Shown in pieces: positions 17,726 to 63,732 of a stretch of DNA of 64,000 bases; the stretch's first letter is position 1; each line of letters opens with the position of its first letter. This stretch comes from a virus. The stretch spans positions 1 to 64,000 of the IMG/VR virus record IMGVR_UViG_3300017963_000253. One strand, written 5' to 3'. Below the pieces are notes generated by a model. That model ran no database searches. It saw only the letters and a list, made by a program, of their open reading frames with translations, and was not told the origin of the DNA. Position numbers and translations under genes: made by a program.

Positions 17726-18157
17726 ATGGCTAGAGGGATGGCAATTCCGGTGAGAACGAATCGGCGGGGCGGAGCCTTCCTGATAGAGGCGTCCCGCTAC
17801 CTCCGGCAGGTGGTCTTCTACGGATTGACCCCAAACTTGAATATGAACCCGTTCCAGGCCGGGGGTGGCGTGGAGATTGGGATCTCCGAGCGGGTGATCT
17901 TCTCCAACCTGACCCCAGTGGCGCGGAGTCTGGCGCGCCGGGGGATAGGTCGGTTCTTCGCCAGGTTGAGGGCGGAGGACATCGCCCGCCTCGTACCCGG
18001 TGCGGAGGGTCTCTCCTTCGAGGACGCGGACGGGGAGCTGATCGCAAACGTCCGGTACCTGGATCTCGAGGCGGACGAGGAGAACGTGGTGAGGACCAAC
18101 ATGATCGGGGCGTTGGGGGGAACCGCTCCGAACAACACCAACCTCTCGGAGGGTTAG
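17726..18157 (+). CDS. Baseplate wedge protein, gp25/W-like
   Basis: A 143-residue product, ATG four bases after the previous stop. The N-terminal to central pattern (a T-N-R-R-G-G-A strand, helix ASRYLRQVVFYGL, then P-F-Q-A-G-G-G-V and a helix ending R-S-L-A-R-R-G) corresponds to the gp25-like wedge family, where P-x-x-G-x-G follows the main helix. Its length (about 110-150 in the family) and its place just before baseplate J agree. The short basic C-terminal helix is typical of wedge initiators. Confidence 0.68.
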   Translation: MARGMAIPVRTNRRGGAFLIEASRYLRQVVFYGLTPNLNMNPFQAGGGVEIGISERVIFSNLTPVARSLARRGIGRFFARLRAEDIARLVPGAEGLSFEDADGELIANVRYLDLEADEENVVRTNMIGALGGTAPNNTNLSEG

Positions 18158-18161
18158 CGGC

Positions 18162-38303: not shown

Positions 38304-38615
38304 ATGGATATCGAAAAGGCGTTGACCCCTTCTGAGACCTGGGACCTGTTGAAGGCCGGGAAGCTCTACATGGACTTCGAGGGCGACGTTCCCCTCCACG
38401 TTTGGAGCGTGGAGAACGACCGCTTCTTCCGTTACCCCGGGGAGCGGGTCTACGTCGAGAGCGAGGACGGGTGGAAGACCCTTTGGGTCAGGCAAAAGGT
38501 GAGGTCGATCTGCAGAGGTGCCAGCGGAGACGGGGTTGTCTTGAACTTCAAAAACCACAACGGAGCCTCCGGGTGGTACCCGTGGCAGAACGTGCGGCTC
38601 GAGGTGGGAAAGTGA
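38304..38615 (+). CDS. Hypothetical small protein
   Basis: A 103-residue product with AAAGGG upstream. It shows W-D-L-L-K-A-G-K near the N-terminus and a compact Trp-rich strand region (VPLHVWSVENDRFFRYPGER). The stop overlaps the GTG of the recombinase. No known domain. Probably co-transcribed with the recombinase. Confidence 0.6.
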   Translation: MDIEKALTPSETWDLLKAGKLYMDFEGDVPLHVWSVENDRFFRYPGERVYVESEDGWKTLWVRQKVRSICRGASGDGVVLNFKNHNGASGWYPWQNVRLEVGK

Positions 38616-39319
38616 AGTATATCGGGTATATACGCGTATCGACGCTAGACCAAGCCCGGACGGGCGTCTCCCTCGCGGACCAGGAGGAGAAGATCCGTCA
38701 GTACGTGGCGCTCGCGGACGGGGAACTCGTGGACGTTATCCAGGACGGGGGGCGGAGCGGGAAGGACCTCGACCGGGAAGGGGTCCAGGAGGCGTTCTCC
38801 CGGGTCCTGAACGGGGAGGCGGACGTCCTAGTGGTCTACGCCATCGACCGCCTCTCTCGTTCCGCTCTGGACCTCCTGCAGCTGGTCTCGAAGCTTAGGG
38901 ACGGGAAGCGGGGGTTCGCTTCCGTCCGGGAGCAGATGGACTCAACTACGCCCCACGGACGGTTCACGATGACGATCCTCGCGGCGGTCGCGGAGATGGA
39001 GCGGGAGATGATTCGCTCCCGCTGCCGCGACGCCTCCGCGCGCTGCGTTCGGGACGGGCGGGTCTGGGGGAAGGTCCCCTTCGGCTACCAGAGGGACCGG
39101 GGTGGGAAGCGCCTGATCGAGGACCCCGTCGAGATGGAGGTCCTCCGCGGGATCCTGTCTCTCCGGGACGCGGGGTACAGCTACGCGAAGATCGCCGCCC
39201 ACCTGAACCGTCGCGGTCGGGGACCGAAGATCGGCGCGCGCTGGTACCCCTCCTCCGTTCGCTCCGTCGTACTGACCCACCAAAAGTACCGCGAGGTTCG
39301 TAGCTTACGAGAGGGTTGA
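38612..39319 (+). CDS. Serine recombinase (resolvase/invertase family)
   Basis: A 235-residue product starting at GTG 38612 (GTGA overlap). Residues 4-20 are I-G-Y-I-R-V-S-T-L-D-Q-A-R with the catalytic Ser at position 10; A-I-D-R-L-S-R follows near 77 and A-E-M-E-R-E near 128, all family motifs. The end has a short recombinase-type helix and an HTH (Y-S-Y-A-K-I-A-A-H-L-N-R). It is larger than Hin (about 190) and much smaller than large serine integrases (over 450). It could invert, resolve or integrate DNA; no obvious att or crossover site is seen. Confidence 0.84.
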   Translation: MKYIGYIRVSTLDQARTGVSLADQEEKIRQYVALADGELVDVIQDGGRSGKDLDREGVQEAFSRVLNGEADVLVVYAIDRLSRSALDLLQLVSKLRDGKRGFASVREQMDSTTPHGRFTMTILAAVAEMEREMIRSRCRDASARCVRDGRVWGKVPFGYQRDRGGKRLIEDPVEMEVLRGILSLRDAGYSYAKIAAHLNRRGRGPKIGARWYPSSVRSVVLTHQKYREVRSLREG

Positions 39320-39391: not shown

Positions 39392-40036
39392 ATGGATAGT
39401 CGAGAGCTGGCCCTTCGGGCCTACCGTTCCAATCCCTCCAATTCCACCTTCCGGCGCGTCGAGTCGGAGTACCGCGGCTGGCTGACGACGGTTTCCGGAA
39501 GCGTCCTCCGGAGGTACCCAGGTTTGACCGGGGTCCGGGAGGACGTCTTGAACGAGGGCCTCCTGGCCCTCTCCCGGAGCGTCAGGCGGTTTCTCTGGTT
39601 CTGCGGGCGCTGCGGAGCGCCGTTCCTCGAGTTCTCGGACCTCCGCGCTCACGCCGCGGCGGAGCACCGCGTCCGCGGGGAGGTGGAGCTGGTCTCCCTC
39701 CGGAAGTTCGCGGAGCAGTCCGCCGGGTACGCCATGAAGCGGACCGCGCTCCGGCTCTACCGTCCGGAGGTCCCCAGCGAGTTCTCGGAGCAGGTCCCGG
39801 ACGAGCGCTGGAGCCGGGACGTCCTAGACGTGGAGCTGCTGGTCCGGCGCGCGGAGCTTCGGATGAGCCGGGACGCCCTCCACCTCCTCCACCGCGTTCT
39901 GGGGACGCCGGAGCCGGATCCCCTCGCCCCGGAGGAGCCGGGTCTCCCGGAGCTGAGGGACCTCCTCCGGGACCTCCCTCAGGCTCATCTTGGTTATGAG
40001 TCCCCGAAGGAGGCGACATGTCGGTACCGGAACTAG
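39392..40036 (+). CDS. Sigma-factor-like protein with inserted C2H2 finger
   Basis: A 214-residue product. Residues 25-70 look like sigma-70 region 2 (R-E-D-V-L-N-E-G-L-L-A-L, then R-S-V-R-R-F). The chain is then interrupted by a C2H2 finger near residues 70-95 (C-G-R-C-G-A-P-F-x-E-F, then L-R-A-H-A-A-A-E-H). It resumes with F-A-E-Q-S-A-G-Y-A-M-K-R near 110, matching region 2.3-2.4. No clear region 4 is visible. If active it could redirect host RNA polymerase to phage promoters. The family assignment is inference. Confidence 0.55.
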   Translation: MDSRELALRAYRSNPSNSTFRRVESEYRGWLTTVSGSVLRRYPGLTGVREDVLNEGLLALSRSVRRFLWFCGRCGAPFLEFSDLRAHAAAEHRVRGEVELVSLRKFAEQSAGYAMKRTALRLYRPEVPSEFSEQVPDERWSRDVLDVELLVRRAELRMSRDALHLLHRVLGTPEPDPLAPEEPGLPELRDLLRDLPQAHLGYESPKEATCRYRN

Positions 40037-40725
40037 AGGGACCTCGTTTCAAGCAACTGAACCTGAGCACGCTGCGGAAGACGTCCGCGGAGGTCCTGGG
40101 CTTCGAGCCCCAGGGTCGGAAGATCCGGGAGGCTCACGCGGAGGTGATGGCGGAGCTGGACCGCCGGAGGCACGAACTCCCCTACGTCTGCGGGCGGTGC
40201 AACTCCTCCTTGGACGGGGAGATGAGCAAGTGCTGGGCCTGCGGGTCCGTGATCCAGGACGAGGCGGAGGACGCGCCGCGGATGACCACTGAGGAGGTCG
40301 AGAGTCGCGCCGGGAAGCTGGGGATTGACCCTGGGGAGAAGGGGGAGGAGGAACTCCGCGCGGAGGTGGAGGCGGCGGAGAAGCGGAAGCGGAACCGCCG
40401 CGGGGACCTCGGGGGGATGGAGGCGGAGCGCCTGAACGAGCAGTTGACGGAGGCGATGGGGGACGGTTGGCGGAAGGATAGGACAAAGTTGTATATTTCC
40501 TATTTTGATCCAAGTGGTCAGAAGAGAATCGGAGTCTACAATCGTGGGCTTCAAGTACAATTTTCCGTCAATGATGGAGTTTTGGATCACTTCGAAAATT
40601 TGGAATTTTTGGACAAGGATGCACGACGCAGACGGCACACGGGGCGGACTAACTATATCTATGTTGGGGACGTCTCCCGCGAGGCCTTAGAGGTCGCTCT
40701 CTTCGTTCTACGCAAGTACAGCTGA
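40018..40725 (+). CDS. Zinc-ribbon protein with AT-rich C-terminal domain
   Basis: A 235-residue product overlapping the sigma-like gene by 19 bases. Residues 59-75 contain C-G-R-C ... C-W-A-C, a zinc ribbon. Residues 160-235 form a compact strand domain (L-Y-I-S-Y-F-D-P-S-G-Q-K-R, then Y-I-Y-V-G-D-V). The DNA for this C-terminal part (about 40480-40640) has only about 35-42% G+C in counted lines, against much higher values upstream in the same gene. This suggests domain acquisition. Function unknown. Confidence 0.62.
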   Translation: MSVPELEGPRFKQLNLSTLRKTSAEVLGFEPQGRKIREAHAEVMAELDRRRHELPYVCGRCNSSLDGEMSKCWACGSVIQDEAEDAPRMTTEEVESRAGKLGIDPGEKGEEELRAEVEAAEKRKRNRRGDLGGMEAERLNEQLTEAMGDGWRKDRTKLYISYFDPSGQKRIGVYNRGLQVQFSVNDGVLDHFENLEFLDKDARRRRHTGRTNYIYVGDVSREALEVALFVLRKYS

Positions 40726-40736
40726 CGGGGCTTCTG

Positions 40737-41684
40737 ATGAAGCCTGAAGAGACGCTCGTCCTCGGGGCCGGTCCCGTGGGCTTGATTGCGGCGGAGATCC
40801 TGGGGGCGCGCTACGTGGTGGGGAAGGATCCCGGGGGTTCCAAGACCCTTCGCAACCTGGCTCCAACCTACCTCTGGTGGACCCCCTCTGTGGAGCGCTT
40901 CCTCCTGGATCTTGGGCTGAATTGGGGATCTCGCTGGGTTAAGTTTGGGTGGCTTTGCTCGGGTGAGGTTAGGGACGCCCCCTCCGAGGCGGACTTGAAG
41001 AGCTATTACCGGCGTAGCCGCGGGGGCGTCTCCGGGAAAGTACCCTCCTCCGTGGCCTCCTCCGGGAAGCCGGGGGAGATCGAGGTCTCCAGCGTTCCCC
41101 TGGAGCAGATAATCGACCTTCTCTTGGAGAGGAACCTGATTTACGAGATGGAGGTGGAGTCTATCTTCCACTTGGGAACGGTGATCCGGTTCAATCAATC
41201 CCCGACGGTGGAGTTCCCCGCTACTACGTTGGTCAACACGCTCCCGAGGTCGGTCTTCTGTGAGATGATATTCCCGAAGATGGAGTTCCCACCGGAGGCA
41301 AAGGCGGGTTGGAAGACCTTCGTAAGTGGGGACGCCTACACTAGTGCGTTGGACCGGGTATGGGAGGAGCGGGAGCTTGACTTCCTCTACGTAGCGGACG
41401 AATCGCTCCCGTTCGAGCGCGTGAAGTTCCTGCATGATTCCTGGAAGAACGAGAGGTTCGTCTACGAGTTCAACGCGGTGTCAGTCCCGCCGGAATTCCT
41501 GGATCTGGTCCATGGGAAGCAGGTTTACTCCGCGCCGCTGCAGATCTCGGAGGTCTCCACCCGTCCCAGGGTGGAGGAGTTGGGGGGTAGGGTCCGGAAC
41601 GTCGGGCGGTTGGCGCGGTGGGATCACTCTATCCGCCTTCACGACGTGATAGAGGAACTCTATCGCTGGAGGGATGTACGATGA
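40737..41684 (+). CDS. FAD/NAD(P)-binding oxidoreductase-like protein
   Basis: A 315-residue product. The N-terminus shows a Rossmann dinucleotide motif (L-V-L-G-A-G-P-V-G-L-I-A-A-E) followed by a hydrophobic strand. The rest (T-P-S-V-E-R-F-L-L-D-L-G-L, then S-V-P-L-E-Q-I-I-D-L-L) resembles flavin amine-oxidase or mutase-like folds without a clear active-site signature. It heads a row of nucleotide-metabolism genes and overlaps the MazG-HAD gene (ATGA). It could act on a nucleotide or sugar, but the substrate cannot be inferred. Confidence 0.62.
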   Translation: MKPEETLVLGAGPVGLIAAEILGARYVVGKDPGGSKTLRNLAPTYLWWTPSVERFLLDLGLNWGSRWVKFGWLCSGEVRDAPSEADLKSYYRRSRGGVSGKVPSSVASSGKPGEIEVSSVPLEQIIDLLLERNLIYEMEVESIFHLGTVIRFNQSPTVEFPATTLVNTLPRSVFCEMIFPKMEFPPEAKAGWKTFVSGDAYTSALDRVWEERELDFLYVADESLPFERVKFLHDSWKNERFVYEFNAVSVPPEFLDLVHGKQVYSAPLQISEVSTRPRVEELGGRVRNVGRLARWDHSIRLHDVIEELYRWRDVR

Positions 41685-42628
41685 AGGACGCGTTGGAGGA
41701 GATCTTCGAGACCCAGACCGCGTTCAACCGGAGGTTCTTCGCGGATCGTGGCTTGGACCTGGCGGAACTCTCCGGAGCGGACCGGGCGCAGTGGACGAAG
41801 CAATTCGTCCTCCACGTGGAGGGGGAGCTTCACGAGCTACTCCGGGAGACGAACTGGAAGATGCATCGCCTGGAGGGGAAGCGGGTCAACCGGGGGAACG
41901 TTCTGGAGGAGTGGACGGACTGCTTCAAGTTCCTGCTCGGGCTCGCCAACGTCTGGGGGTTCTCCGCCTCCGAGGTCCTGGAGGAGTTCCGCCGGAAGTC
42001 CCGGGTGGTGGACTACCGTTACGGGATGGAGCAGCGTCTCCGGGCGATCTCTCCGGGGAGTCCGGTGGTGGCGGTGGACATCGACGGGGTTCTGAACGAC
42101 TACCCAGGTTGCTTCCTCCGCTGGGTTTCCCCCCCAGCTGAAGAACCGTTCGAGACGCTTGCGGCGCTCCGGGAGAAGGTGGGTCCCAAGCGGTACCGGG
42201 AGATCAAGGACGAGTACCGGAAGAGCGGGGCGAAGCGGGAGCAGGGGGTTCGACCCGGTGCGCGGGAGATGCTCAACGGACTCCGCGCCGCCGGTTACTC
42301 CGTGGTCCTACTATCCAAGCGTCCCTACTGGCGGTTCTACCGGATCTACGCGGATACGCTGGAGTGGCTGGAGCGGAACGGGCTCCGCTGCGACGCGGTC
42401 CTCTTCCACCGGGAGAAGCACCGGAAGATCCTGGAGGACTTCCCTAACCTTATCGCGATGGTGGAGGACGACCCCGCGGTGGCGCGGGAGATCCTCTCCA
42501 TCGGGGTGGAGGTCTTCTTGGTAGAGGGGGAGCTGAACGTAGGGGCGGAGGTACCCGGGGCAAACAGAATTTCCAACGTCGCGGACGTCGTGACGGAACT
42601 GGAGGAGATTGGGTATGAGTCACGATAG
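41681..42628 (+). CDS. MazG/dUTPase-like pyrophosphatase fused to HAD phosphatase
   Basis: A 315-residue product starting at ATG 41681 (an upstream start would overlap the previous gene). Residues 1-115 look like the all-alpha NTP pyrophosphatase fold: H-V-E-G-E-L-H-E-L-L, then V-L-E-E-W-T-D-C-F-K-F, with acidic metal ligands. Residues about 130-315 form a HAD-type domain: V-V-A-V-D-I-D-G-V-L-N, then S-V-V-L-L-S-K-R-P, and E-D-D-P. Such a fusion could convert nucleoside triphosphates to monophosphates and further dephosphorylate them. The GGAGGAG near its end serves the next gene. Confidence 0.75.
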   Translation: MKDALEEIFETQTAFNRRFFADRGLDLAELSGADRAQWTKQFVLHVEGELHELLRETNWKMHRLEGKRVNRGNVLEEWTDCFKFLLGLANVWGFSASEVLEEFRRKSRVVDYRYGMEQRLRAISPGSPVVAVDIDGVLNDYPGCFLRWVSPPAEEPFETLAALREKVGPKRYREIKDEYRKSGAKREQGVRPGAREMLNGLRAAGYSVVLLSKRPYWRFYRIYADTLEWLERNGLRCDAVLFHREKHRKILEDFPNLIAMVEDDPAVAREILSIGVEVFLVEGELNVGAEVPGANRISNVADVVTELEEIGYESR

Positions 42629-43736
42629 AGTAGAGGAGATCCGGAAGTTGCGACGCCTGATGGGAACCGCTCCAGAGGCGGAGCCTGAGTTCGAGACGAA
42701 GTTCTACCGCGGGGTAGAGGGGATCCGCGTGAAGCTGGTAGATGGACCTCGGAACCCCTACCGGGCGATGTACGCGATGGGGGTCTCTACCTGGGGGCAT
42801 ATTCACTCTTTAGCTACTGACCGTTGGGAGGATACACCGCCGGAGGCCCGGGAGGCGGTAGTCCGGGCGGTCCTAGGGTTTAACGCCCTCCCGCTAGCGA
42901 TGGAGGCCCCGAAGTTTACGTTCGAGGTCTATAACCTTACGCGGTGGAGCTTCGATCAGATCGCCCGCGCGCGGATCGGGGCGGTCTTCGCTTCCCTCGG
43001 GACGCGGGATAACAACCATTTGGGGATCCCCTTCCGGATGCACGAGGCGACTTGGAGGAACGAGTCGAAGCGAGGTCTCTTTGTGGGCAACGCCAAGAAC
43101 GCCAAGGACGCGTACCGGACGTTGGTGGAGAGTGGGAGGGGGAGTTGGCAGGAGGCGCGGACGTTCCTCCCGATCTCGGTGGTCCATCGCTTCACGATGT
43201 CGATCAACTTCCTTGCCCTCCGGGGGATGTGCGCCCGGAGGATGACCTTCTCGGAGGCGGAGGACACTGTTGCGGTGGCGTGGCTCCTTCGAGACCGTTT
43301 GATGAAGGCGGACGCCTACCCGCTTCTCGCCGCCCATCTTCGACCCGCTTGTGACGGCGCGGGGACCTGCCGGTATCACAAGGCTCACACGATTTCAGAG
43401 GCCTTTGGGTGTCTTTTCAAGAGCTGTGGTCGACACCCGGTGAAGAGCGCCCCCGGGAACCCGGATTTCGATTACGAGTATGCGGACTTTAACGTCAGTT
43501 GTTCGGACCGAAAGACGATTCAGGATCAGCTGCAGATTTCGATCCCGGAGCGGACCATGGATCCTGACAAGGTGGAACTTACTTCCCGCGACCGTTTCCT
43601 CTTAGGATTTCAGGCTCAGAATGAGGAGGAGTTTGAAGATTGGAGGTGGTACGCGCAGGCGGAGAGAGGGGTGGATGCAAACCCGTTCCCCCTCCCGGAT
43701 TCCGGGGCTGCAGTTGAACCGGTGGACCTCCCGTGA
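42615..43736 (+). CDS. Divergent ThyX-family protein with Cys-rich C-terminus
   Basis: A 373-residue product starting at ATG 42615 behind GGAGGAG. The ThyX plan is recognisable: K-F-T-F-E-V near residue 108, a helix with F-D-Q-I-A-R-A-R-I-G, and later A-Y-R-T-L-V-E-S-G, A-R-T-F-L-P-I and R-F-T-M-S-I-N. The family signature RHRxxSxNExSxR is changed to R-A-R-I-G-A-V-F-A-S-L-G-T-R, so catalysis on dUMP may differ. After residue 250 come C-D-G-A-G-T-C and then C-L-F-K-S-C-G-R-H, a likely metal site not typical of ThyX (210-260 residues). Possible modified-pyrimidine synthase. Confidence 0.65.
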   Translation: MSHDRVEEIRKLRRLMGTAPEAEPEFETKFYRGVEGIRVKLVDGPRNPYRAMYAMGVSTWGHIHSLATDRWEDTPPEAREAVVRAVLGFNALPLAMEAPKFTFEVYNLTRWSFDQIARARIGAVFASLGTRDNNHLGIPFRMHEATWRNESKRGLFVGNAKNAKDAYRTLVESGRGSWQEARTFLPISVVHRFTMSINFLALRGMCARRMTFSEAEDTVAVAWLLRDRLMKADAYPLLAAHLRPACDGAGTCRYHKAHTISEAFGCLFKSCGRHPVKSAPGNPDFDYEYADFNVSCSDRKTIQDQLQISIPERTMDPDKVELTSRDRFLLGFQAQNEEEFEDWRWYAQAERGVDANPFPLPDSGAAVEPVDLP

Positions 43737-44269
43737 TCCGCGCGCTGGAGGGGGTGAACTTCGTCGGGAAAAGTACGGCTACTAATCTTCTCTCTGTGGA
43801 GTTTGGTTTTCCTGTTTATTCGGATCCTGGAAGGCATGGATTGTTTGAAGATTGGTTAGTTCCGTTTTCTCCGCGTGAATGGCAGGTTCAAGGGACTCAA
43901 AATGCATTAGCTAGTACAGTGTTTTCCAACTGGGTAGACGTAATTTTGGATCGCTGGATCCTCTCGAATTTGGTTCACGATGAGGAGCGGGGATTGAAAA
44001 TCCCGGACCGCGTTATCTGGAAAATTTTGGAGTTGACTGATAATGCGAGGGTGTACCTCCTACATGCGGATCTTTCGGTGGTGTTGGAGCGAGCGGAGGA
44101 GCGTGGTGTGGTAGTAACTGATTCGCTCCGGGATACGATATTCAAGCGGGCAGAAGCCTTTCTTCGTTGGGCCACCGTTTTGGATTCTTACTATGGGGTC
44201 GAAGTTTATCTCGTTAACGCAAACTGGAGTAGTGGAGAGGTTTTCGATGCGATATATCGTAACTGGTAG
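43733..44269 (+). CDS. Deoxynucleoside monophosphate kinase-like protein
   Basis: A 178-residue product, GTG start overlapping the ThyX-like stop. Residues 5-16 are a P-loop, L-E-G-V-N-F-V-G-K-S-T-A, as in thymidylate kinase. D-R-W-I-L-S-N near 72 resembles the D-R-Y/H motif, and R-A-E-E-R-G near 118 suggests a lid. It would phosphorylate a nucleotide, possibly the product of the ThyX-like enzyme. The DNA is clearly less GC-rich than that of its upstream neighbours. Confidence 0.7.
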   Translation: MIRALEGVNFVGKSTATNLLSVEFGFPVYSDPGRHGLFEDWLVPFSPREWQVQGTQNALASTVFSNWVDVILDRWILSNLVHDEERGLKIPDRVIWKILELTDNARVYLLHADLSVVLERAEERGVVVTDSLRDTIFKRAEAFLRWATVLDSYYGVEVYLVNANWSSGEVFDAIYRNW

Positions 44270-45254
44270 CAGTGGGATGCTGGGTCATGTCTTGGACGAG
44301 ACCCTTCGGTCCCTGGGTCACGAGCGGTTGATCCCGAGCGGTCGGAACTGGAAGAGCCCTTCCACCGGGGAGATAGAGCCGGACTTCCGGGACCCTGTAT
44401 ATCTTCGTTGGCTGGAGGGGGCGAACGTGGACGTCTTCTTCCACGCCGGGGCGTTGGTGGGGACGACGCGATGTGAGGCGCACGCGGAGGATGCCTGGAG
44501 CTGCAACGTCGAGGCGGTCCGGAGGATCGCGGATATCCTCTCCCGGCGACGGATCTACACCGTCTTCTACGCCACTGCTGCGGAGATGGAGCCGGGGGAG
44601 TATGGGTTGGACCGGCCTATCGACGTGGGACGGACCCCCCGGAACCCGCTTACCCGTTACGGGATTACGAAGTTGGCGGGGCGGGAGTTGATGGAGGTCC
44701 TTTTCCGGGAGCGTGGTGTGGAGGAACTCCTTCTCCAGGTCTATCCTAGCTTTGGCTTCGGAGGGGCGCGGGACGGGAACTCCTGTGTGGCCGACCTTCT
44801 GAAGTGTGCCCTCGGGGTTTATGACCGCAGACCCTTCCTCCCGCTCGCCCCGGAGAACATCAAGGAGGTCACACCGCACTCCTACATCGCGGAACTTTCC
44901 GTCCGCGCCGCGGAGCGACGTCTCTCTGGGAAGATTCCTATCGCGTCTGGGGTCTGGACCCGTTACGCGGAGATCGTGGAGATGGTCGAGGATGTCACCG
45001 GGGAGAAGTTGGACCCGGAGTGGCGTGCGGACCTGGACTACAAGGGGGACTTCTTACATGTACGGGAGGACGTCTTCTCCTTGGCAGAGGATCTGGGGGT
45101 TCCGGTCCTGACGCGGGTGGAGATCAAAGCGGCTCTCGTGGATGAGATGAACGGGATCCTGAACGCGGAGGGTGCCGGGGTGATGGCGAATCACGAGTGG
45201 CGGTTCGCGGAGAAGCTTGTGGAGGCGTTCCCGGGTTGGGAGGGACGTAGATGA
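44247..45254 (+). CDS. Extended SDR epimerase/dehydratase (RmlD-like)
   Basis: A 335-residue product, ATG 44247 overlapping the kinase gene by 23 bases with GGAGAGG upstream. The N-terminus carries T-G-S-S-G-M-L-G (NAD site), and R-Y-G-I-T-K near 137 holds the Y-x-x-x-K pair. V-F-F-H-A-G-A follows the usual third strand. It matches dTDP-4-dehydrorhamnose-reductase or NDP-sugar epimerase-type proteins. Sugar or nucleotide-sugar processing is implied; whether for a DNA modification or envelope change is unknown. Confidence 0.76.
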   Translation: MRYIVTGSSGMLGHVLDETLRSLGHERLIPSGRNWKSPSTGEIEPDFRDPVYLRWLEGANVDVFFHAGALVGTTRCEAHAEDAWSCNVEAVRRIADILSRRRIYTVFYATAAEMEPGEYGLDRPIDVGRTPRNPLTRYGITKLAGRELMEVLFRERGVEELLLQVYPSFGFGGARDGNSCVADLLKCALGVYDRRPFLPLAPENIKEVTPHSYIAELSVRAAERRLSGKIPIASGVWTRYAEIVEMVEDVTGEKLDPEWRADLDYKGDFLHVREDVFSLAEDLGVPVLTRVEIKAALVDEMNGILNAEGAGVMANHEWRFAEKLVEAFPGWEGRR

Positions 45255-45934
45255 TTAGATATTTGAATAAATTAGTTGAAGTATTGACTAATTTGGATAA
45301 CGAAGAGCGTATTGAGGCTTTGAATTTGGTAAAGACGGAGCTTCATAAAATTTCTCCTTTCAAGGCGGAGCCTGTGGATTGTGTGCTTTGGGAGCGTACT
45401 TCTCGTGTAATTGCTAACGATTACAATCCTAATGCTGTTGCTCCTCCGGAAATGGAGTTACTTCGGATTTCGATAGAGTCGGATGGATTCACCCAACCTG
45501 TTGTGACGGATTTCAGTGACGAGTCTGAGGTGTTTGTGGTGGTGGATGGATTTCACCGTAATCGAGTGGCTCGAGAGTGTGAATCTGTGGTGGATAAGTT
45601 GGGTGGTTACCTTCCGATAGTTCAGATACGTGCTGATCAGAAGGGGCGTTCAGATAGAATTGCTTCGACGATTCGTCACAATCGCGCAAGGGGTAAGCAT
45701 CAAATCGCAAAGATGTCTGATATTGTGATTGAATTGAAGCGGAGAAATTGGTCTGACAAGAAGATAGGTCGTGAACTTGGGATGGATCCTGATGAGGTGT
45801 TGCGATTGGCTCAGATTACTGGGTTAGCAGAAGCGTTTCGGGACAAGGAGTTCACTCGGGCCTGGGAGGCAGATTTGAAGTTGGATGACGAGTTGATCGA
45901 GGGATTGGTCGAAGAGGTCGACTTGGATGAGTAG
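45251..45934 (+). CDS. ParB/Srx-fold protein, IbrB-like
   Basis: A 227-residue product, ATGA overlap with the SDR gene. Residues about 45-125 match the ParB nuclease-type fold (A-V-A-P-P-E-M-E-L-L-R-I-S-I, G-F-T-Q-P-V-V, V-V-V-D-G-F-H-R-N-R-V). A helix-turn-helix near 150-190 follows (ELKRRNWSDKKIGRELGM). IbrB proteins pair with IbrA (PAPS-reductase-like). The DNA is very A+T-rich (38% G+C in a counted 60-base line at 45301), in sharp contrast with neighbours. It is the first gene of a three-gene foreign-looking cassette. Confidence 0.75.
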   Translation: MIRYLNKLVEVLTNLDNEERIEALNLVKTELHKISPFKAEPVDCVLWERTSRVIANDYNPNAVAPPEMELLRISIESDGFTQPVVTDFSDESEVFVVVDGFHRNRVARECESVVDKLGGYLPIVQIRADQKGRSDRIASTIRHNRARGKHQIAKMSDIVIELKRRNWSDKKIGRELGMDPDEVLRLAQITGLAEAFRDKEFTRAWEADLKLDDELIEGLVEEVDLDE

Positions 45935-46343
45935 GTTGGAAACGATAGATTTTGAGAGAGTTCAACCTGGTAGAGTTTACTTTCATTACTTGGATTTGGA
46001 GGAGTATCACGCCGGGTTTTGGAAGTCTGTTTACAATCGGGATATTAAGGCGCGCTTGACTGCTACTTCGGTTAAGATTTTGCGGGATCGGGATATTTTT
46101 AGTGGTGCAGTTCAACGTGTGATAAAGGAGTGGCCAAACTCTTGTCTAGCGGAATTTACTGCTCCTGGAAATCACAGGGCTTGGTTGGGTCAGGCTGCGT
46201 GCTGTCTCGTTGCTGGTGTTCCGGAGAACCTGACTCGGTTAGCGTGGTGGAAGTTAACTGAGGTCCAAAGAATCGCCGCTAACGATATTGCGGAGATTGC
46301 TATTCGAGATTGGAGGATAAGACGTGTTGAAACGAAGACTTGA
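45927..46343 (+). CDS. Unknown protein of the ParB/PAPS-reductase cassette
   Basis: A 138-residue product between the IbrB-like and IbrA-like genes, overlapping both by 8 and 20 bases. It contains a central DIFSGAVQRVIKEWPNSCLAEF stretch and then H-R-A-W-L-G-Q-A-A-C-C-L, with paired Cys. No family is recognised. It shares the low G+C content and close spacing of the flanking genes, so it is part of the module. It could be a partner or immunity factor; function not known. Confidence 0.7.
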   Translation: MSRLETIDFERVQPGRVYFHYLDLEEYHAGFWKSVYNRDIKARLTATSVKILRDRDIFSGAVQRVIKEWPNSCLAEFTAPGNHRAWLGQAACCLVAGVPENLTRLAWWKLTEVQRIAANDIAEIAIRDWRIRRVETKT

Positions 46344-47556
46344 GATCAACGTCTTGGAGGCAGCTCGGGAACGGATAGCGCGGGTTTTCGACGATTTTGA
46401 GAGAATTTATGTGGCGTTTAGTGGGGGTAAGGACTCAACTGTGATGATGCACTTGGCGTGTGAAGAGGCACGCCGTCGGGAGTGTAGAGTTGGGATCTTA
46501 ATGGTGGATTTGGAAGGTTACTTTGAAATCACGGTGAAACACTGCGTTGAAATGTTTGAAATGTACGCGGATGTGATAGAGCCGTTTTGGATTTGTCTTC
46601 CGATTCACCTTCGTAATGCAGTGAGTGTGTTTGAGCCGTTTTGGGTTTGTTGGGATCCTAAAGCAGAAGGGGCTTGGGTTCGACGACCTCCAAAGGAAGC
46701 GATTGTTGATTCAGGGTACTTTCCTTTTTTCCGTGAAGGTATGGAGTTTGAGGAATTTGTGCCGCTATTTGGGGATTGGTACGCAGATGGGAAGCGGTGT
46801 GCGTGTCTTGTGGGTATCCGCACGGACGAGAGTTTGAATCGCTTTCGAACAATTGCGATTTCCCAAAAGGAGAGATTTGAGGGTCTTTCTTGGACGACGA
46901 AGATCACCAAGGATCTCTATAACGTATACCCTATTTACGATTGGTCTGTTGAAGATATTTGGGTATATCACGCGAAGTTTGGAGATAAGCCTCACAATCG
47001 GCTGTACGATTTGATGCACCAAGCGGGTATGACGCCTTCCCAGATGCGAATTTGTCAACCTTATGGAGACGATCAAAGGCGTAACTTGTGGCTATTTCAC
47101 ATTATCGAACCTAAGACTTGGGCCAGGATTGTTGCACGTGTGAATGGTGCTAATGGGGGAGCACTTTATATTCAGGAGTGGGGAAATATTAATGGTTATC
47201 GAAAGATAACTAAACCTGTTGGGCATACTTGGAGAAGTTTCTCAGAACTCCTCGTGGCTTCGATGCCAGAAAAGTCAAAGATTCACTATCGTAACAAGAT
47301 CCTTCTTTTTGAAAAGTGGTGGACAGAGCGTGGTTACCCTGAAGGGATTCCTGATGAGGCGGATCCACGAATGGAGGCTAATCGCAAAGCTCCAAGTTGG
47401 CGGAGAGTATGTAAATCGTTACTTAGAAACGATTATTGGTGTAAGGGACTTGGATTTAGTCAGCAGAAGAGTGCTGCCTACAAGGCTTACTTGGAGTTGA
47501 TGAAGCGGCGGAAGAAATCTTGGGGTGTCAGTGATGTTAAGTTGGGGTTTGTATGA
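46324..47556 (+). CDS. PAPS-reductase-like protein, IbrA/DUF3440 type
   Basis: A 410-residue product, GTG start. S-G-G-K-D-S-T at residues 33-39 is the PP-loop ATP-pyrophosphatase motif, followed by V-M-M-H-L-A. V-G-I-R-T-D-E-S-L-N-R-F-R near 160 and I-Y-D-W-S-V-E-D-I-W-V near 202 match the IbrA/PAPS-reductase family. The C-terminal part (Y-R-N-K-I-L-L-F-E-K-W-W) corresponds to the DUF3440 extension. It may activate a substrate by adenylation and transfer sulfur or act on nucleic acid. The low G+C content continues to its end. Confidence 0.82.
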   Translation: MLKRRLEINVLEAARERIARVFDDFERIYVAFSGGKDSTVMMHLACEEARRRECRVGILMVDLEGYFEITVKHCVEMFEMYADVIEPFWICLPIHLRNAVSVFEPFWVCWDPKAEGAWVRRPPKEAIVDSGYFPFFREGMEFEEFVPLFGDWYADGKRCACLVGIRTDESLNRFRTIAISQKERFEGLSWTTKITKDLYNVYPIYDWSVEDIWVYHAKFGDKPHNRLYDLMHQAGMTPSQMRICQPYGDDQRRNLWLFHIIEPKTWARIVARVNGANGGALYIQEWGNINGYRKITKPVGHTWRSFSELLVASMPEKSKIHYRNKILLFEKWWTERGYPEGIPDEADPRMEANRKAPSWRRVCKSLLRNDYWCKGLGFSQQKSAAYKAYLELMKRRKKSWGVSDVKLGFV

Positions 47557-50480
47557 GAAGTCCACGTGTTAAGAGACTTCAAGAGAACGGGTTTCGATCT
47601 GGAGCTTCTCTTGTAGCTGATGCGGACACTCAGGCGTTTGCGGAGGATCAAGTAGAGCACCGCGCGCAGTACCAGCAGACCGCTGCGTCCGTGGAGGAGG
47701 TCAAGGACAAGCGGAGCGTTGAGGACCTCCAGGACGCTACGGACTTCGACGACTTGAAGAAGGCGGCTTGGACCTTCAATCCGGGGACGGAGTACTACCA
47801 CGGGTGGTCGGAGGGAAACGACATAATCTTACTTCGGAGGGATCCGGAGACGGGGCGGCGGATCCGGGAGATTCACCCGTTTGAGTGGTACTTCTACGTC
47901 ACTCGGGAGGACTATGAGAGTGTACCCAAGGATTCCTGGGATTGGCTCTGTAGTTGTGGAACGCTCGCGGAGAAGGTGGTTCCGGACGAGAACTATCCTG
48001 ATTTGTACTATCGGGTTTACGTAAAGAACCCTGTTCCGAAGTTGGATAAGAAGAGGATCTTTTCGAATGTCGGAGATCCGGATCGTGGTGCGAATTGGGC
48101 GATTCCTTTCTATCGAGGTGAGAGTTCAAGATCTATCAGATGGCCACGGGACCGGGAGAAGTGGACGAGAGTTCACAAAGTGATCAATTGGTGTGAGCGA
48201 AAGGGAGTGACACCGTTGGAGGCGGATCTTACGCCGAAGCAGCGGTTTCTCACGGATTACGATATAACGATCACTCCGAAATTTCGGATAGGGTTCTTCG
48301 ATATTGAGACGGATGACTCTGTTGGAGGGTTCGATAAGAAGGAGCAGTGTCGAATTCTCTCAATAGCTTGGGAGGGGGACCGCTTCGAGGAAGATCCAAC
48401 TGATTGTGGATTCTTGTTGCTACAGGAGGAGACGGACGAGGCTGAGAAGAAGTTGCTTTTGGAGTTCAAGCGTAGTTGCGTCAATAAATACGACGTATTG
48501 TCGGCTTGGAATGGGACTGGGTTTGACTTTCCTGTTCTATTCTATCGGTTTTGGAAGCACAAAATTCGAATCGACTGGCGTTATCACCTCTTTGCAGATC
48601 CGCTTCCTATCTTCAAGCGGCACTACGTTAGAGCCGGAGGGGATGCGATTTCCTACTCCCTTGATTCTATCGGGGAGAAGGTTCTGAAGATGAATAAGAT
48701 CGACTGGAGGACGATCTTTCGGAAACGTCACCCTGGGGTGGTCCCGAAGTTCATCAACCTCTACCGGCACGACCCGGAGCTTTTGGAGGAGTACAACCGT
48801 CTGGACGCCACAATCCTCCGGAAGCTGGAGGCGTTCACCGGGTTCGTGGCGATCGAGCAGATCTTCTGCCGGATTGCGAACGGGTTCCCGAACGATTTTC
48901 AGATTTCGACTAAGGTGGACCAGCTCTTACTGAAGAAGGGGTTCAAGGAGGGGCATCACTTCCCGACGAGATACTGGTCTCCTGGTAAGCCGGAGAAGTA
49001 CGAAGGAGCTTACGTATTTCCGCCGGTTCGCGGGATGCACCGGAACGTTGCCGCGTTTGACTTCAAGAGCCTGTACCCCTCGATGATCTCCAGTTTCAAT
49101 ATCTCCCCGGAGACAATCGTGAAGGAGGAGAACAGGGCGGATTTTGAGGAGAAGGACCTTTGCAGGATCCCGGAACTTGATTTGGAGCGGGAGGACGGGG
49201 ACGGGGAGATAGAGGTCTTGCAGAAGGGTGGTTCCACCTTCAGGTTGGACAAGCAGGGGTACCTCTCGCAGATGTTTGAGCGTACTTTGATGAGGAGGAA
49301 GAAGTACCAGGACCTTCAGAAGGAGCGTTTGAAGGTCACCGGGACGACTCAGGACGATCTCTTCCTCCTCTACTATCGCTTGGCTTACTCCTTCAAGCGG
49401 TTGGGGTTATCCTTCTACGGAGATATCGGGAACTCCAGGTCCAGGTTCTACGACACTGAGGTGGCGGAGGCGATCACTCTCTCTGGTCAGTTCTTTATCA
49501 AGGAAACAGCTAAATACGCCCAAGAGTGCGGAATGATTCCACTTTATGGGGACACCGATTCCATCTACGTCCAGTTAGCACCTACTGAACAGGAGTGGGA
49601 TTCGCAGGAGGAGCGGATCGCGGAGTTGAACGAAATTGGGGAACGCTTCGTGGAGTATTGTCAGGAGCGTTATCTGAAGATCCTCAAGGAGCACAATTGC
49701 AACCTGGATTGGAACCTTATCTTCCTGGAGTTCGAGGACACCTACGACCGGATTTTCTTCATCGTCAAGAAGCGGTACGCCGGGAGGATGCTCTCCCACA
49801 AGGGGGGGAAGACGGACCACGTGGAGGTCAAGGGTCTCGAGGTGATGCGGAGCGATTGCTCCGGGAAAACGCGGGCGCTTCAGCAAGCGGTGTTGGACGG
49901 AATTCTCATGACGGGGATGACCGCGGAGCAGCTGGAGCGGGAACTGATAGAGCCGGAGTTCAACAGGTGCGTCTCCGGTGAACTTACCGTGGACGAGGTC
50001 TGCATCGGGAAGGGGATCTCCAAGGAGCCGGAGAAGTACAAGACGACCCCGCTCCACGTGGCTTTGGCACAGGAGATCAAGGACCACGGGCGGGAGTTCT
50101 TCGTTGGGATGAAGGTGGAGTACGTGGTCACCGGGGTGAAGCCGAAGCTCCAGGGCGTGACGCGAGAGGAGTACGAGGACTCGAACGGGGAGTTGGTTTA
50201 CGACCCGGAGTACTACTGGGATCGGGTGGTCTACCCCGCCTCGATGAGGATCCTGGAGGTCTGTTACCCGGAGAAGGACTGGACTCGCTGGAAGGTGGCG
50301 GACAATCGGAGGCGGCGGAAATTGGTGGACCGCTACAAGATCTGGTTAGCTGACCCGAAGCGGGTAGAGAAGGCGCTCCTCCAGATCCGGGAGAATAAGC
50401 GTGGACTCCTAGGACCGCCGGAACTGGCGGAACTCCGGACCGCGCCCCGCGTCCGCATCTTGGATAGGAGTGAGGGATGA
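47553..50480 (+). CDS. Family B DNA polymerase
   Basis: A 975-residue product overlapping the previous stop (ATGA). The 3'-5' exonuclease motifs are seen: F-F-D-I-E-T near 247-252 and Y-N-R-L-D-A-T near 417. Polymerase motif A is F-D-F-K-S-L-Y-P-S (Asp 503), motif B-like L-G-L-S-F-Y-G-D near 625, and motif C Y665-G-D-T-D-S. K-K-R-Y-A-G near 747 is the KxY motif. It replicates the phage genome. The first ~30 codons share the AT-rich composition of the upstream cassette and the rest is GC-rich, so the 5' end looks chimeric. Confidence 0.93.
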   Translation: MRSPRVKRLQENGFRSGASLVADADTQAFAEDQVEHRAQYQQTAASVEEVKDKRSVEDLQDATDFDDLKKAAWTFNPGTEYYHGWSEGNDIILLRRDPETGRRIREIHPFEWYFYVTREDYESVPKDSWDWLCSCGTLAEKVVPDENYPDLYYRVYVKNPVPKLDKKRIFSNVGDPDRGANWAIPFYRGESSRSIRWPRDREKWTRVHKVINWCERKGVTPLEADLTPKQRFLTDYDITITPKFRIGFFDIETDDSVGGFDKKEQCRILSIAWEGDRFEEDPTDCGFLLLQEETDEAEKKLLLEFKRSCVNKYDVLSAWNGTGFDFPVLFYRFWKHKIRIDWRYHLFADPLPIFKRHYVRAGGDAISYSLDSIGEKVLKMNKIDWRTIFRKRHPGVVPKFINLYRHDPELLEEYNRLDATILRKLEAFTGFVAIEQIFCRIANGFPNDFQISTKVDQLLLKKGFKEGHHFPTRYWSPGKPEKYEGAYVFPPVRGMHRNVAAFDFKSLYPSMISSFNISPETIVKEENRADFEEKDLCRIPELDLEREDGDGEIEVLQKGGSTFRLDKQGYLSQMFERTLMRRKKYQDLQKERLKVTGTTQDDLFLLYYRLAYSFKRLGLSFYGDIGNSRSRFYDTEVAEAITLSGQFFIKETAKYAQECGMIPLYGDTDSIYVQLAPTEQEWDSQEERIAELNEIGERFVEYCQERYLKILKEHNCNLDWNLIFLEFEDTYDRIFFIVKKRYAGRMLSHKGGKTDHVEVKGLEVMRSDCSGKTRALQQAVLDGILMTGMTAEQLERELIEPEFNRCVSGELTVDEVCIGKGISKEPEKYKTTPLHVALAQEIKDHGREFFVGMKVEYVVTGVKPKLQGVTREEYEDSNGELVYDPEYYWDRVVYPASMRILEVCYPEKDWTRWKVADNRRRRKLVDRYKIWLADPKRVEKALLQIRENKRGLLGPPELAELRTAPRVRILDRSEG

Positions 50481-57600: not shown

Positions 57601-57993
57601 ATGGACGCTTCTGTGAATAAGGTCATTTTGATCGGGCGGCTGGGAACGGACCCGGAACTCCGGTACTTTGACTCCGGGAAGGCGCTCTGTAACTTCTCCC
57701 TGGCGACTAACCGGAGTTGGAAGGACCGAAACGGGGAGAGTCAGGAGCGGACGGACTGGCACCGTATCGTAACCTGGTCGCGACTTGCGGAGAACTGCTC
57801 CAAGTACCTGGAGAAGGGAAGGAAGGTCTTCGTGGAGGGGCGTCTGGAGACCCGGAACTGGGAGGACGAGGAGGGGAAGCGTCACTACATCACGGAGGTG
57901 GTGGCGAGCAATGTACTCTTTCTCGGCGGCGGGAGCGTTAACGAGGGACCTCCTCCGACGCAGGAGGAATTGGACGAGGACCTTCCCTTTTGA
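57601..57993 (+). CDS. ssb: Single-stranded DNA-binding protein
   Basis: A 130-residue OB-fold SSB. Residues 5-110 contain the family pattern: [26 protein letters not shown], then W-H-R-I-V and [10 protein letters not shown]. The C-terminus ends in D-E-D-L-P-F, the conserved acidic tip that recruits partner proteins. The length is short but typical for phage SSBs. The MTase gene begins in the stop codon region. It coats ssDNA during replication and repair. Confidence 0.94.
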
Positions 57994-58847
57994 GACTGAA
58001 GCAATCCATTTGCCCGGGGTACGTTTGGGAGGACCCGGAGGGTCTGCACCTGATCGCTTGCGGGGACTTCCGGGACCCGGGCCTGCTTCGCGGGCTCCTG
58101 AAGCGGTTCGGGGAGGAGGAGTTCCAACTCACGCTCGCGGATCCTCCCTACGCGGTGGCATCGGAGAAGCAGCGGATCCAGTTGGAGGGGCGTAAGGACC
58201 AGTTCCTGACGGAGAAGTGGGACCTCCTGACACCGGAGGAACTGAGAGACCTCCTCGTTCGTCTGTGTCTGGAGGTCACGCGGGTTACTCCCGCCGGGAA
58301 CGTCTGGATCTGGACCTCCGACTGGTACGTCTCGGAGCTGAAGTGGGAGCTGAAGCGTCTCGGACTCCGGGTCTGGCCCACCTACGTCTGGTGCAAGTCC
58401 AACCCACCTTGGCAGGTCCGGAAGTCGAACCCCGCCTCCGCCTGCGAGTTCCTGGTGATGGCCAGCAAGAAGGGGAACTATTTTGAACTAGACGCCCTCC
58501 CGAAGCAGCGAAACTGGTTCGTTGCCTCCGCGTCCGGGGAGTTGGATTACTCCCCTGCGGTCTCCCCCTACTGGGTGGAGCGCCCGGTGGTTCACGCCGC
58601 GGAGCGCCTCCGGAAGGTGGGGGAGAAGGAGTTCCTGAATCGCGCCCAGAAGCCGCTAGACGTGACGGAGGCCCTTGTTCGCGCCGGGTGTCCGGAGGGT
58701 GGTTTGCTCCTGGACCTCTGCGGGGGGACCGGAACAGGGTTACTCGCAGCGGAGCGGACGGGTCGCCGCTGCGTCTACGTGGAGAAGGACCCAACGCAGG
58801 TGCGGGCGGCGGGACGCCGCCTCCTGGAGGAGCGGAGGAATGGTTAA
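57990..58847 (+). CDS. DNA methyltransferase (N6-adenine/N4-cytosine class)
   Basis: A 285-residue product with a TTG start overlapping the SSB stop (TTGA). L-A-D-P-P-Y near residue 48 is the catalytic D-P-P-Y motif, followed by a target-recognition-like middle, and D-L-C-G-G-T-G-T-G near 235 is the AdoMet motif. This motif order (catalytic before AdoMet) is that of beta-class methyltransferases. No cognate restriction gene is seen, so it may be an orphan used for self-protection. The target sequence is unknown. Confidence 0.86.
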
Positions 58848-62874: not shown

Positions 62875-63065
62875 GTGAAGACCCCAGAGACCCCAGAGAT
62901 CGCTACGTGACGGTTTGCGCAGCGTGTCTCCGTGCTTCCTGCTGGCAAGGTCGCTTCTACTGTGACACCGCGCGGGACGCCGGGACTCGGGAGCTTTCTG
63001 TCTCTCATCTGAAGAGGTTAGACCTGGAAAATCCTGAGTACTGGGAGGAGGATAGAGATGAGTAA
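62871..63065 (+). CDS. Small Cys-containing protein
   Basis: A 64-residue product. Residues 16-31 contain C-A-A-C and C-W-Q-G-R-F-Y-C, a possible zinc site. It starts within the previous stop (ATGA) and ends inside the start of the epimerase gene. Similar short C-x-x-C proteins recur across the window. Function unknown. Confidence 0.58.
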   Translation: MSEDPRDPRDRYVTVCAACLRASCWQGRFYCDTARDAGTRELSVSHLKRLDLENPEYWEEDRDE

Positions 63066-63732
63066 GCGCGTGATCGTTACGGGCGGGTGCGGATTCCTGG
63101 GTTCCCACGTCGTCGACGAGTTGCTGGAGAGGGGTCACTCCGTGACGGTGGTGGACAACCTTTCCTCCTGCTGGATGGAGGAGTCCGGGGGAAATCCAAC
63201 CCCGAGGTTTCAGCGGGATGAGGCGGAGTACAACTTCTTCTGCATGGAGGAGGGTCGCTGGACGCTTTTGGAGGGCGTGGCGGAGGCGGAGGCGGTTATT
63301 CACCTCTCCAAGCGTCACCCCCTGGAACCGGAGCGCCCGTTGGTCACTTCCGCCTGGAACGGGTACGTCTCCGGGGGGATCTCCCTCCTGAACTTCCTCT
63401 TGGACATCCGCGCGCCGTTGAAGCGCTTCGCGGCGGTGGGGACCGCGGAGGCGTTCGACGCGCGGGGTAGACCCGCCCCGTTCTTCCCGGTAGAGCGCGC
63501 GCTGAGTTCCTGGCTGGAGCACTGGCACCGCCCACCCGCGCTTGGGGCGTACATGGTTAACTTCCAGGAGTTGACCGGGGAGAGAAGACTCCCGGAGGCG
63601 GGGGAGGTGGGTCCGGGGTACTCCGCACCCGTAACTTGGGCCGCTCGAGAACTGGCGGATCTCGCGGACGGGACGCGGAAGCATCAGAAGGCATCGAGAC
63701 TCTTCCCGATATACAAGTTGACGGAGTTATGA
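63058..63732 (+). CDS. Short NAD-dependent epimerase-like protein
   Basis: A 224-residue product. T-G-G-C-G-F-L-G near the N-terminus is the NAD motif, and V-V-D-N-L-S is the usual second strand of UDP-glucose-4-epimerase-type proteins. The protein is about 100 residues shorter than typical (about 310-340), and the Y-x-x-x-K pair is not seen (Y-M-V-N-F occurs where it would be expected). It may be a degraded or non-catalytic homologue. A second, complete SDR is at 44247-45254. Confidence 0.66.
   Translation: MSKRVIVTGGCGFLGSHVVDELLERGHSVTVVDNLSSCWMEESGGNPTPRFQRDEAEYNFFCMEEGRWTLLEGVAEAEAVIHLSKRHPLEPERPLVTSAWNGYVSGGISLLNFLLDIRAPLKRFAAVGTAEAFDARGRPAPFFPVERALSSWLEHWHRPPALGAYMVNFQELTGERRLPEAGEVGPGYSAPVTWAARELADLADGTRKHQKASRLFPIYKLTEL

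Follow-up and report, generated by a model that had tools for sequence, protein, structure and literature searches.

Analysis of a 64,000-nucleotide stretch of viral DNA (hereafter the window; bases 1–64000 of the 75,133-base IMG/VR record IMGVR_UViG_3300017963_000253) revealed a cassette of overlapping genes encoding a flavin adenine dinucleotide (FAD)/Rossmann-type protein, a MazG-HAD fusion, a divergent ThyX, a kinase and a short-chain dehydrogenase/reductase (SDR). It is rather probable that this cassette directs a pre-replicative pyrimidine modification, i.e. that it supplies the DNA of the virus itself with a non-canonical pyrimidine deoxynucleotide. A more specific proposal is put forward tentatively, as about evenly balanced: that the ThyX has been re-tooled to place a non-methyl group on a pyrimidine deoxynucleoside monophosphate (dNMP), possibly with the aid of a metal or Fe-S site and of a partner resembling UDP-galactopyranose mutase (UGM), and that both the base and the route are undescribed.

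Part of the evidence comes from the ThyX-family protein. Its match to PF02511 (37.5 bits, against a curated cut-off of 24.8) places it in the family, and its score for the canonical ThyX equivalog TIGR02170 (18.9 vs 87.9 bits) lies below the cut-off. Residue numbers were derived by aligning the protein to Thermotoga TM0449 and to canonical ThyX paralogs encoded by the same viruses. In ThyX, H53 stacks on the flavin or folate (PMC11940539), the RHR residues bind the cofactor and arginines bind the substrate (PMC6514825), S88 and Y91 help methylene transfer, and R174 activates dUMP (PMC8316439). In all 14 close members of the cassette family H53 is replaced by Leu, E86 by Ser, S88 by Gly and Y91 by Asp, and His never occurs at position 79; all 14 keep Q75, R78, R80, R90, R147 and R174, which include the flavin and substrate arginines. 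The window protein has RAR in place of RHR, and Leu, Gly (G129) and Asp (D132) in place of H53, S88 and Y91; it thus lacks the canonical combination of RHR with H53, S88 and Y91, and it retains R78, R80, R90, R147 and R174. Position 91 is Phe in two of the same-virus canonical paralogs, so this position alone is not decisive. The preliminary description of the locus had proposed that the ThyX-like enzyme makes an altered dNMP. The divergence it noted is confirmed, and consists in the loss of methyl-forming residues with retention of the substrate arginines; the altered dNMP remains a prediction.

The cassette ThyX family also has a cysteine-rich C-terminal extension, and distant members share its C-x5-C pair and two cysteines further along (the protein of contig L006 is cut short before the last cysteine of the cluster). 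These cysteines possibly form a metal or Fe-S site. In the ThyX tree, the ten first-found members constitute one clade (support 100/100), which lies apart from canonical ThyX on long branches. Intermediate forms, with H53 replaced and S88 kept, are present in L046, L047, L051, L052, L055 and L057 as well as in actinophages. A separate observation concerns L054, which contains two adjacent ThyX-like genes (18067–18873 and 18849–19541). The product of the first keeps the CRDN loop and has lost RxR; in that of the second, RARIG, the cysteine cluster and the counterpart of R174 are all retained, and the pair may possibly form a split (heteromeric) active site.

Searches of whole records identified a separate, high-scoring ThyX (E about 1e-48), with H53, H79, S88 and R174, in the viruses of L003, L005, L006 and L011. 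Since these viruses encode a canonical ThyX separately, the cassette ThyX is probably not their source of dTMP. A scan of genome contigs for the cassette ThyX gave no confirmed match.

The distribution of the gene set was examined in other viruses. The ThyX query identified four distant relatives (L003–L006; 60–66% best-segment identity); a near-identical contig (L002) was left out of the independent counts. The order 235-aa gene, FAD, MazG-HAD, ThyX, kinase, PolB is kept in all four relatives, and L029, a 5.7-kb fragment, likewise keeps the order from the 235-aa gene to the kinase. Protein identity in the order-keeping relatives is 27–66%, and such conservation exceeds what chance would give. 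Wider ThyX profiles added L011, L025, L027, L029 and L032, and in each of the resulting ten contigs, the window included, FAD, MazG, HAD and kinase genes lie within 10 kb of ThyX (the kinase is weak in L025), with MazG and HAD fused in nine contigs and separate in L011. The window and L003–L006 encode a PolB polymerase, and L011, L025, L027 and L032 a DnaE polymerase. The sharing of the set by PolB- and DnaE-type viruses indicates that the cassette has either been transferred between replication systems or persisted through polymerase swaps.

Since these contigs had been chosen by ThyX, a second search was anchored on the MazG-HAD profile. After removal of contigs already known (L048 being the L025 contig) and of three short matches to MazG alone, it yielded 13 new contigs (L046, L047 and L049–L059), two of which (L056 and L058) match a single half of the fusion, either MazG or HAD. 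A ThyX-like gene is located within 10 kb in 12 of the 13, the exception being L050, whose right flank extends for only about 3.4 kb. The FAD gene is clear in six (L049, L053, L054, L056, L058 and L059), SDR, kinase and ThyA-like genes recur, and in L056 FAD and MazG form a single open reading frame (ORF). The preliminary description had named as a refuting outcome that the genes be unrelated strays, absent as a group in relatives; their recurrence in both the ThyX-anchored and the MazG-HAD-anchored contigs, beside unrelated polymerases, leads to the rejection of this idea.

The MazG half of the fusion protein matches PF08761 (dUTPase_2; E 2e-6). The HAD half matches phrog_415 (8e-13) and, below the cut-off, PF06941 (NT5C; E 3e-4). 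Alignment showed that MazG residues E49, E52, E76/E77 and D80, and HAD residues D133xD135, S212, K246 and D263, are kept, with conservative changes in distant members. The kinase is a P-loop, thymidylate-kinase-like protein (phrog_761, 6e-10; PF02223, 5e-4, below the cut-off). The roles originally assigned to these two proteins, i.e. removal of the normal deoxynucleoside triphosphate (dNTP) and activation of the altered dNMP, fit the predicted domains and the conserved catalytic residues. Taken as a whole, the preliminary interpretation has partial support. Identity of the kinase among relatives is 27–40%, compared to 58–66% for MazG-HAD and ThyX, and its gene seems to have been exchanged more often than the neighboring ones.

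The FAD/Rossmann protein had no sequence-family match, and a tblastn search of the phage collection with the window copy likewise gave none. It carries an N-terminal GxGPVGL and a C-terminal VGRxARWDHxIRxHD motif. Its AlphaFold model (predicted local distance difference test score, pLDDT, 79), compared with known structures using Foldseek and VIA-align, folds like UGM, protoporphyrinogen oxidase (PPO) and monoamine/amine oxidases (MAO), with Z scores of 14.5–17.6 among the matches listed; the top match was UGM (Z 17.6 over 301 residues, with an overall identity of about 12%). UGMs also ranked first (E 0.011) when a profile of the nine-member flavoprotein family was compared with solved structures. 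The protein is, however, shorter (294–319 aa) than the matched UGM chains (about 360–517 aa). As judged from the model, it resembles UGM by fold, but this fold is common to PPO and MAO, so the likeness is non-specific and leaves the reaction undecided.

The SDR matches PF01370 (2e-13) and, below the equivalog cut-off, TIGR01214 rmlD (1e-9). The preliminary description counted it among the genes of the operon. It is indeed present and overlapping in the window, but it is not a constant member: the gene is found in L003 and L004 and is absent from L005 and L006. Because it is missing from some close relatives, the SDR is regarded as accessory and was rejected as a core member.

Further partners were found in relatives only. 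Twelve distinct short ThyA-like proteins (154–248 aa) are encoded in ten of them: L003, L004, L011 (two), L025, L027, L032, L054, L056, L058 (two) and L059. Only those of L011 and L027 pass PF00303, the other assignments being derived from our own profiles and alignment. All 12 have the catalytic Cys146 and an Asp at the position of E. coli Asn177 (a dCMP signature); the loss of His147 was not counted, since a canonical bacterial ThyA (1bko) also lacks this residue. MetaGPA ties ThyA Asp177 to modified-cytosine contigs (PMC8670742). Because dCMP-signature ThyA-like proteins sit in the cassette, cytosine is the probable origin of the base, or of a second base, in these ten relatives. L011, L027, L032 and several further contigs encode a dCMP deaminase, and a uracil-DNA glycosylase (UDG)-family protein occurs in seven of the nine environmental records searched (in one case below the curated cut-off). 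Two side observations were made in these contigs. A UDG-superfamily domain constitutes the N-terminal part of DnaE in L027 (6141–9941) and L032 (5749–9972), and intein-like (HINT) insertions (L032:10001–11446 and L025:14431–16137) occur in a ThyX-like gene (after RMKF-C) and a UDG-family gene.

What is observed directly is the presence and linkage of the genes, the altered residues and, in relatives, a canonical ThyX encoded apart from the cassette; the enzymatic steps of the proposed route, all of them inferred, would be as follows. The MazG-HAD protein, to judge from its domains and active-site residues, would hydrolyze a canonical pyrimidine dNTP to the dNMP and then to the nucleoside, leaving less competition. 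Since its arginines are kept, the ThyX-like enzyme is expected to bind a pyrimidine dNMP and flavin, and the loss of the H53/S88/Y91 set suggests that its product would bear a C5 group other than methyl, e.g. hydroxymethyl or a larger adduct. The UGM/MAO-fold flavoprotein, together with the SDR where present, might then finish, oxidize or reduce the added group, this being a weak prediction. Finally, the dedicated kinase would phosphorylate the modified dNMP, and the polymerase of the same gene run would incorporate the resulting nucleotide. Asp177 ThyA-like proteins favor C in many relatives. For the window virus the base is left between U/T and C, because no ThyA-like gene was seen there and the retained R174 favors uracil; these two features together favor a U/T base.

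Several points weigh against the pyrimidine-modification reading. The AlphaFold model of the ThyX has a pLDDT of 37.5, so its residues were assigned by sequence alignment. For the flavoprotein, the fold is a generic one and the tie to an actinophage protein (see below) is a partial profile match; the family matches of the kinase are weak and its gene is compositionally foreign. In the 75-kb record of the window virus neither a ThyA-like gene (PF00303 and our own profile) nor a UDG-family gene was found (the L011 record was likewise negative for UDG), and neither a glycosyltransferase nor any other enzyme known to decorate DNA was recognized beside the cassette. Moreover, a second ThyX was not found in this record, which is possibly incomplete, and the modified nucleotide could act as a free molecule without entering DNA.

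The lack of a second ThyX in the record would be consistent with ordinary nucleotide salvage, in which the cassette boosts dTMP/dTTP, ThyX producing dTMP, the kinase dTDP, and MazG cleaning up dUTP. ThyX, MazG and dNMP kinases are common metabolic genes of phages, and the MazG half matches dUTPase_2. Salvage is nevertheless unlikely, as H53, H79, S88 and Y91 are all replaced, whereas the same-virus canonical paralogs keep H53, H79 and S88, and supply would not require that a HAD phosphatase and a UGM-like flavoprotein be constantly linked to the set. It is quite improbable that the product is a free nucleotide inhibiting host polymerases or signaling, or that host dNTPs are depleted as a means of take-over or counter-defense: MazG-HAD is a plausible dNTP-depleting enzyme, and incorporation into DNA is a prediction, but the dedicated kinase, the gene run shared with a replicative polymerase and the fusion of a UDG-family domain with DnaE, seen in two relatives, point to DNA. 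The structural and profile matches to UGM, and the weak match of the SDR to rmlD, could also mean that the FAD and SDR proteins are sugar-nucleotide enzymes (a UGM-like mutase and an RmlD-like reductase) for surface glycans or a DNA-attached sugar, which lie beside nucleotide genes. This explanation, the least probable of those considered, accords poorly with the small size of the FAD protein, with its adjoining MazG-HAD even without an SDR (L005 and L006), with the FAD-MazG fusion in L056 and with the lack of a recognized glycosyltransferase beside the FAD gene.

The genetic organization of the locus is summarized in Table 1. The five ORFs described previously as coupled by overlaps were all confirmed on the + strand (40737–45254); consecutive genes, from FAD to SDR, overlap by 4, 14, 4 and 23 nt. 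The likely starts are 40737 for FAD, 41681 for MazG-HAD, ATG 42615 (with GGAGGAG upstream) for ThyX and GTG 43733 for the kinase. The earlier limits hold for these genes with the exception of the SDR start, now placed at ATG 44247 rather than 44193. The right-hand end requires revision, as the overlapping run extends past 45254 through ParB-like, unknown and PAPS-reductase/DUF3440 genes to PolB, ending at 50480.

Table 1. Features of the cassette and of the adjacent genes in the window.
Feature	Position	Strand	Evidence
235-aa zinc-ribbon protein, directly upstream of FAD gene	40018..40725	+	Syntenic in PolB-type relatives; not core
Small FAD protein, 315 aa, UGM/PPO/MAO-class fold	40737..41684	+	AlphaFold model, Foldseek and VIA-align, family profile; adjoins MazG-HAD in relatives
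MazG (dUTPase_2-type)-HAD (NT5C-type) fusion, 315 aa	41681..42628	+	Families, kept catalytic residues
Divergent ThyX-family enzyme, 373 aa	42615..43736	+	PF02511 37.5 bits; residue tables
Altered ThyX signature RARIGAVFASLGTRD (R118-D132) replacing RHRx(7)S	42966..43010	+	Residue alignment
ThyX-like C-terminal cysteine cluster C246, C252, C266, C271, C296	43350..43502	+	Alignment
P-loop dNMP-kinase-like protein, 178 aa	43733..44269	+	Family matches, GC3
RmlD/epimerase-type SDR, 335 aa, optional member	44247..45254	+	Family matches, relatives' gene content
ParB-like, 138-aa unknown, PAPS-reductase/DUF3440 genes	45251..47556	+	Between SDR and PolB; without counterpart in L003–L006
Family-B DNA polymerase, end of overlapping run	47553..50480	+	Family matches, synteny

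The gene of the 235-aa zinc-ribbon protein was not found in DnaE-type loci. Analysis of the GC content at third codon positions (GC3) gave 0.51 for the kinase and 0.44–0.46 for the ParB-like, unknown and PAPS genes, compared to 0.72–0.86 for their neighbors, and these genes therefore look like recent acquisitions. The ParB-like and PAPS-reductase/DUF3440 genes resemble the IbrB/IbrA pair. Elsewhere in the window, a serine-recombinase integrase (38402–39319; phrog_95, E 1e-62) suggests that the virus is temperate. A CcrM-like adenine DNA methyltransferase (57990–58847; below the equivalog cut-off) is a second possible DNA-modifying enzyme, and a second SDR-like ORF (63058–63732; 224 aa) has a phrog_540 match confined to its first 37 residues. 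A haloarchaeal host, an idea arising from the PolB matches, was rejected, as the proteome is not acidic (D+E 14.6%).

A related gene set was detected in actinophages. In 79 phage records, of which 77 are from actinophages, the MazG-HAD protein matches, mostly via the HAD domain, genes annotated as "phosphatase" or "hydrolase". The actinophage HAD genes adjoin or lie near an "oxidoreductase" gene (phrog_8720), which has homologues in 120 records, and a ThyX-like gene is present in all five phages inspected (Onyinye, Wentworth, Rumi, P3.1 and RikSengupta). As in the cassette ThyX, H53 and H79 are replaced in these proteins; S88, in contrast, is kept. Profile comparison of the cassette and actinophage flavoproteins gave 96.9% probability over the C-terminal 120 columns, and a common origin is likely. 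The two sets also share FAD and HAD genes that lie side by side or almost so, a MazG-like gene, an SDR in some cases and proximity to DnaE. They differ in that the actinophage genes are dispersed, MazG and HAD are unfused and the FAD proteins are only distantly alike. The actinophage set occurs in cultured phages growing on Mycobacterium smegmatis, Gordonia and Microbacterium, which makes it directly testable.

To our knowledge, phage pyrimidine hypermodification pathways either begin with a ThyA-type enzyme or modify DNA after its synthesis. If the proposed modification is real, a re-tooled ThyX would be a second chemical entry point to pyrimidine hypermodification. It would account for genes whose current annotations read "thymidylate synthase", "oxidoreductase" or "phosphatase", and it would predict new DNA bases, which may affect restriction and other defenses. 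A search of the open literature for ThyX in connection with phage DNA modification revealed no description of this gene set, prior mention elsewhere being possible.

The SPO1-type hydroxymethyluracil and T4-type hydroxymethylcytosine pathways comprise a hydroxymethylase homologous to thymidylate synthase (TS), a dNTPase, a dNMP kinase and a polymerase. The roles predicted for the cassette follow the same plan: an enzyme acting at C5 of the dNMP, a means of clearing the normal dNTP and a dedicated kinase, with replication genes alongside. However, the cassette would use a flavin-type ThyX variant as its C5 enzyme, joins MazG and HAD in one protein and has a UGM-like flavoprotein in its core; no hydroxymethylase was identified in the window. 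The cytosine-modification sets found by MetaGPA contain a TS with Asp177, a deaminase, a pyrophosphohydrolase and a carbamoyltransferase, and the main text of that report has no ThyX or MazG (PMC8670742). The relatives resemble these sets in having Asp177 ThyA-like proteins and a dCMP deaminase beside a pyrophosphohydrolase; in the cassette, in contrast, the ThyA-like proteins are short, the ThyX-like enzyme and the flavoprotein are central, and no carbamoyltransferase was recognized. With canonical ThyX (TM0449 and paralogs L038–L041) the cassette enzyme shares PF02511 and the flavin/dUMP arginines, but differs in the replacement of H53, H79, S88 and Y91, in its cysteine-rich C-terminal extension and in forming a separate clade.

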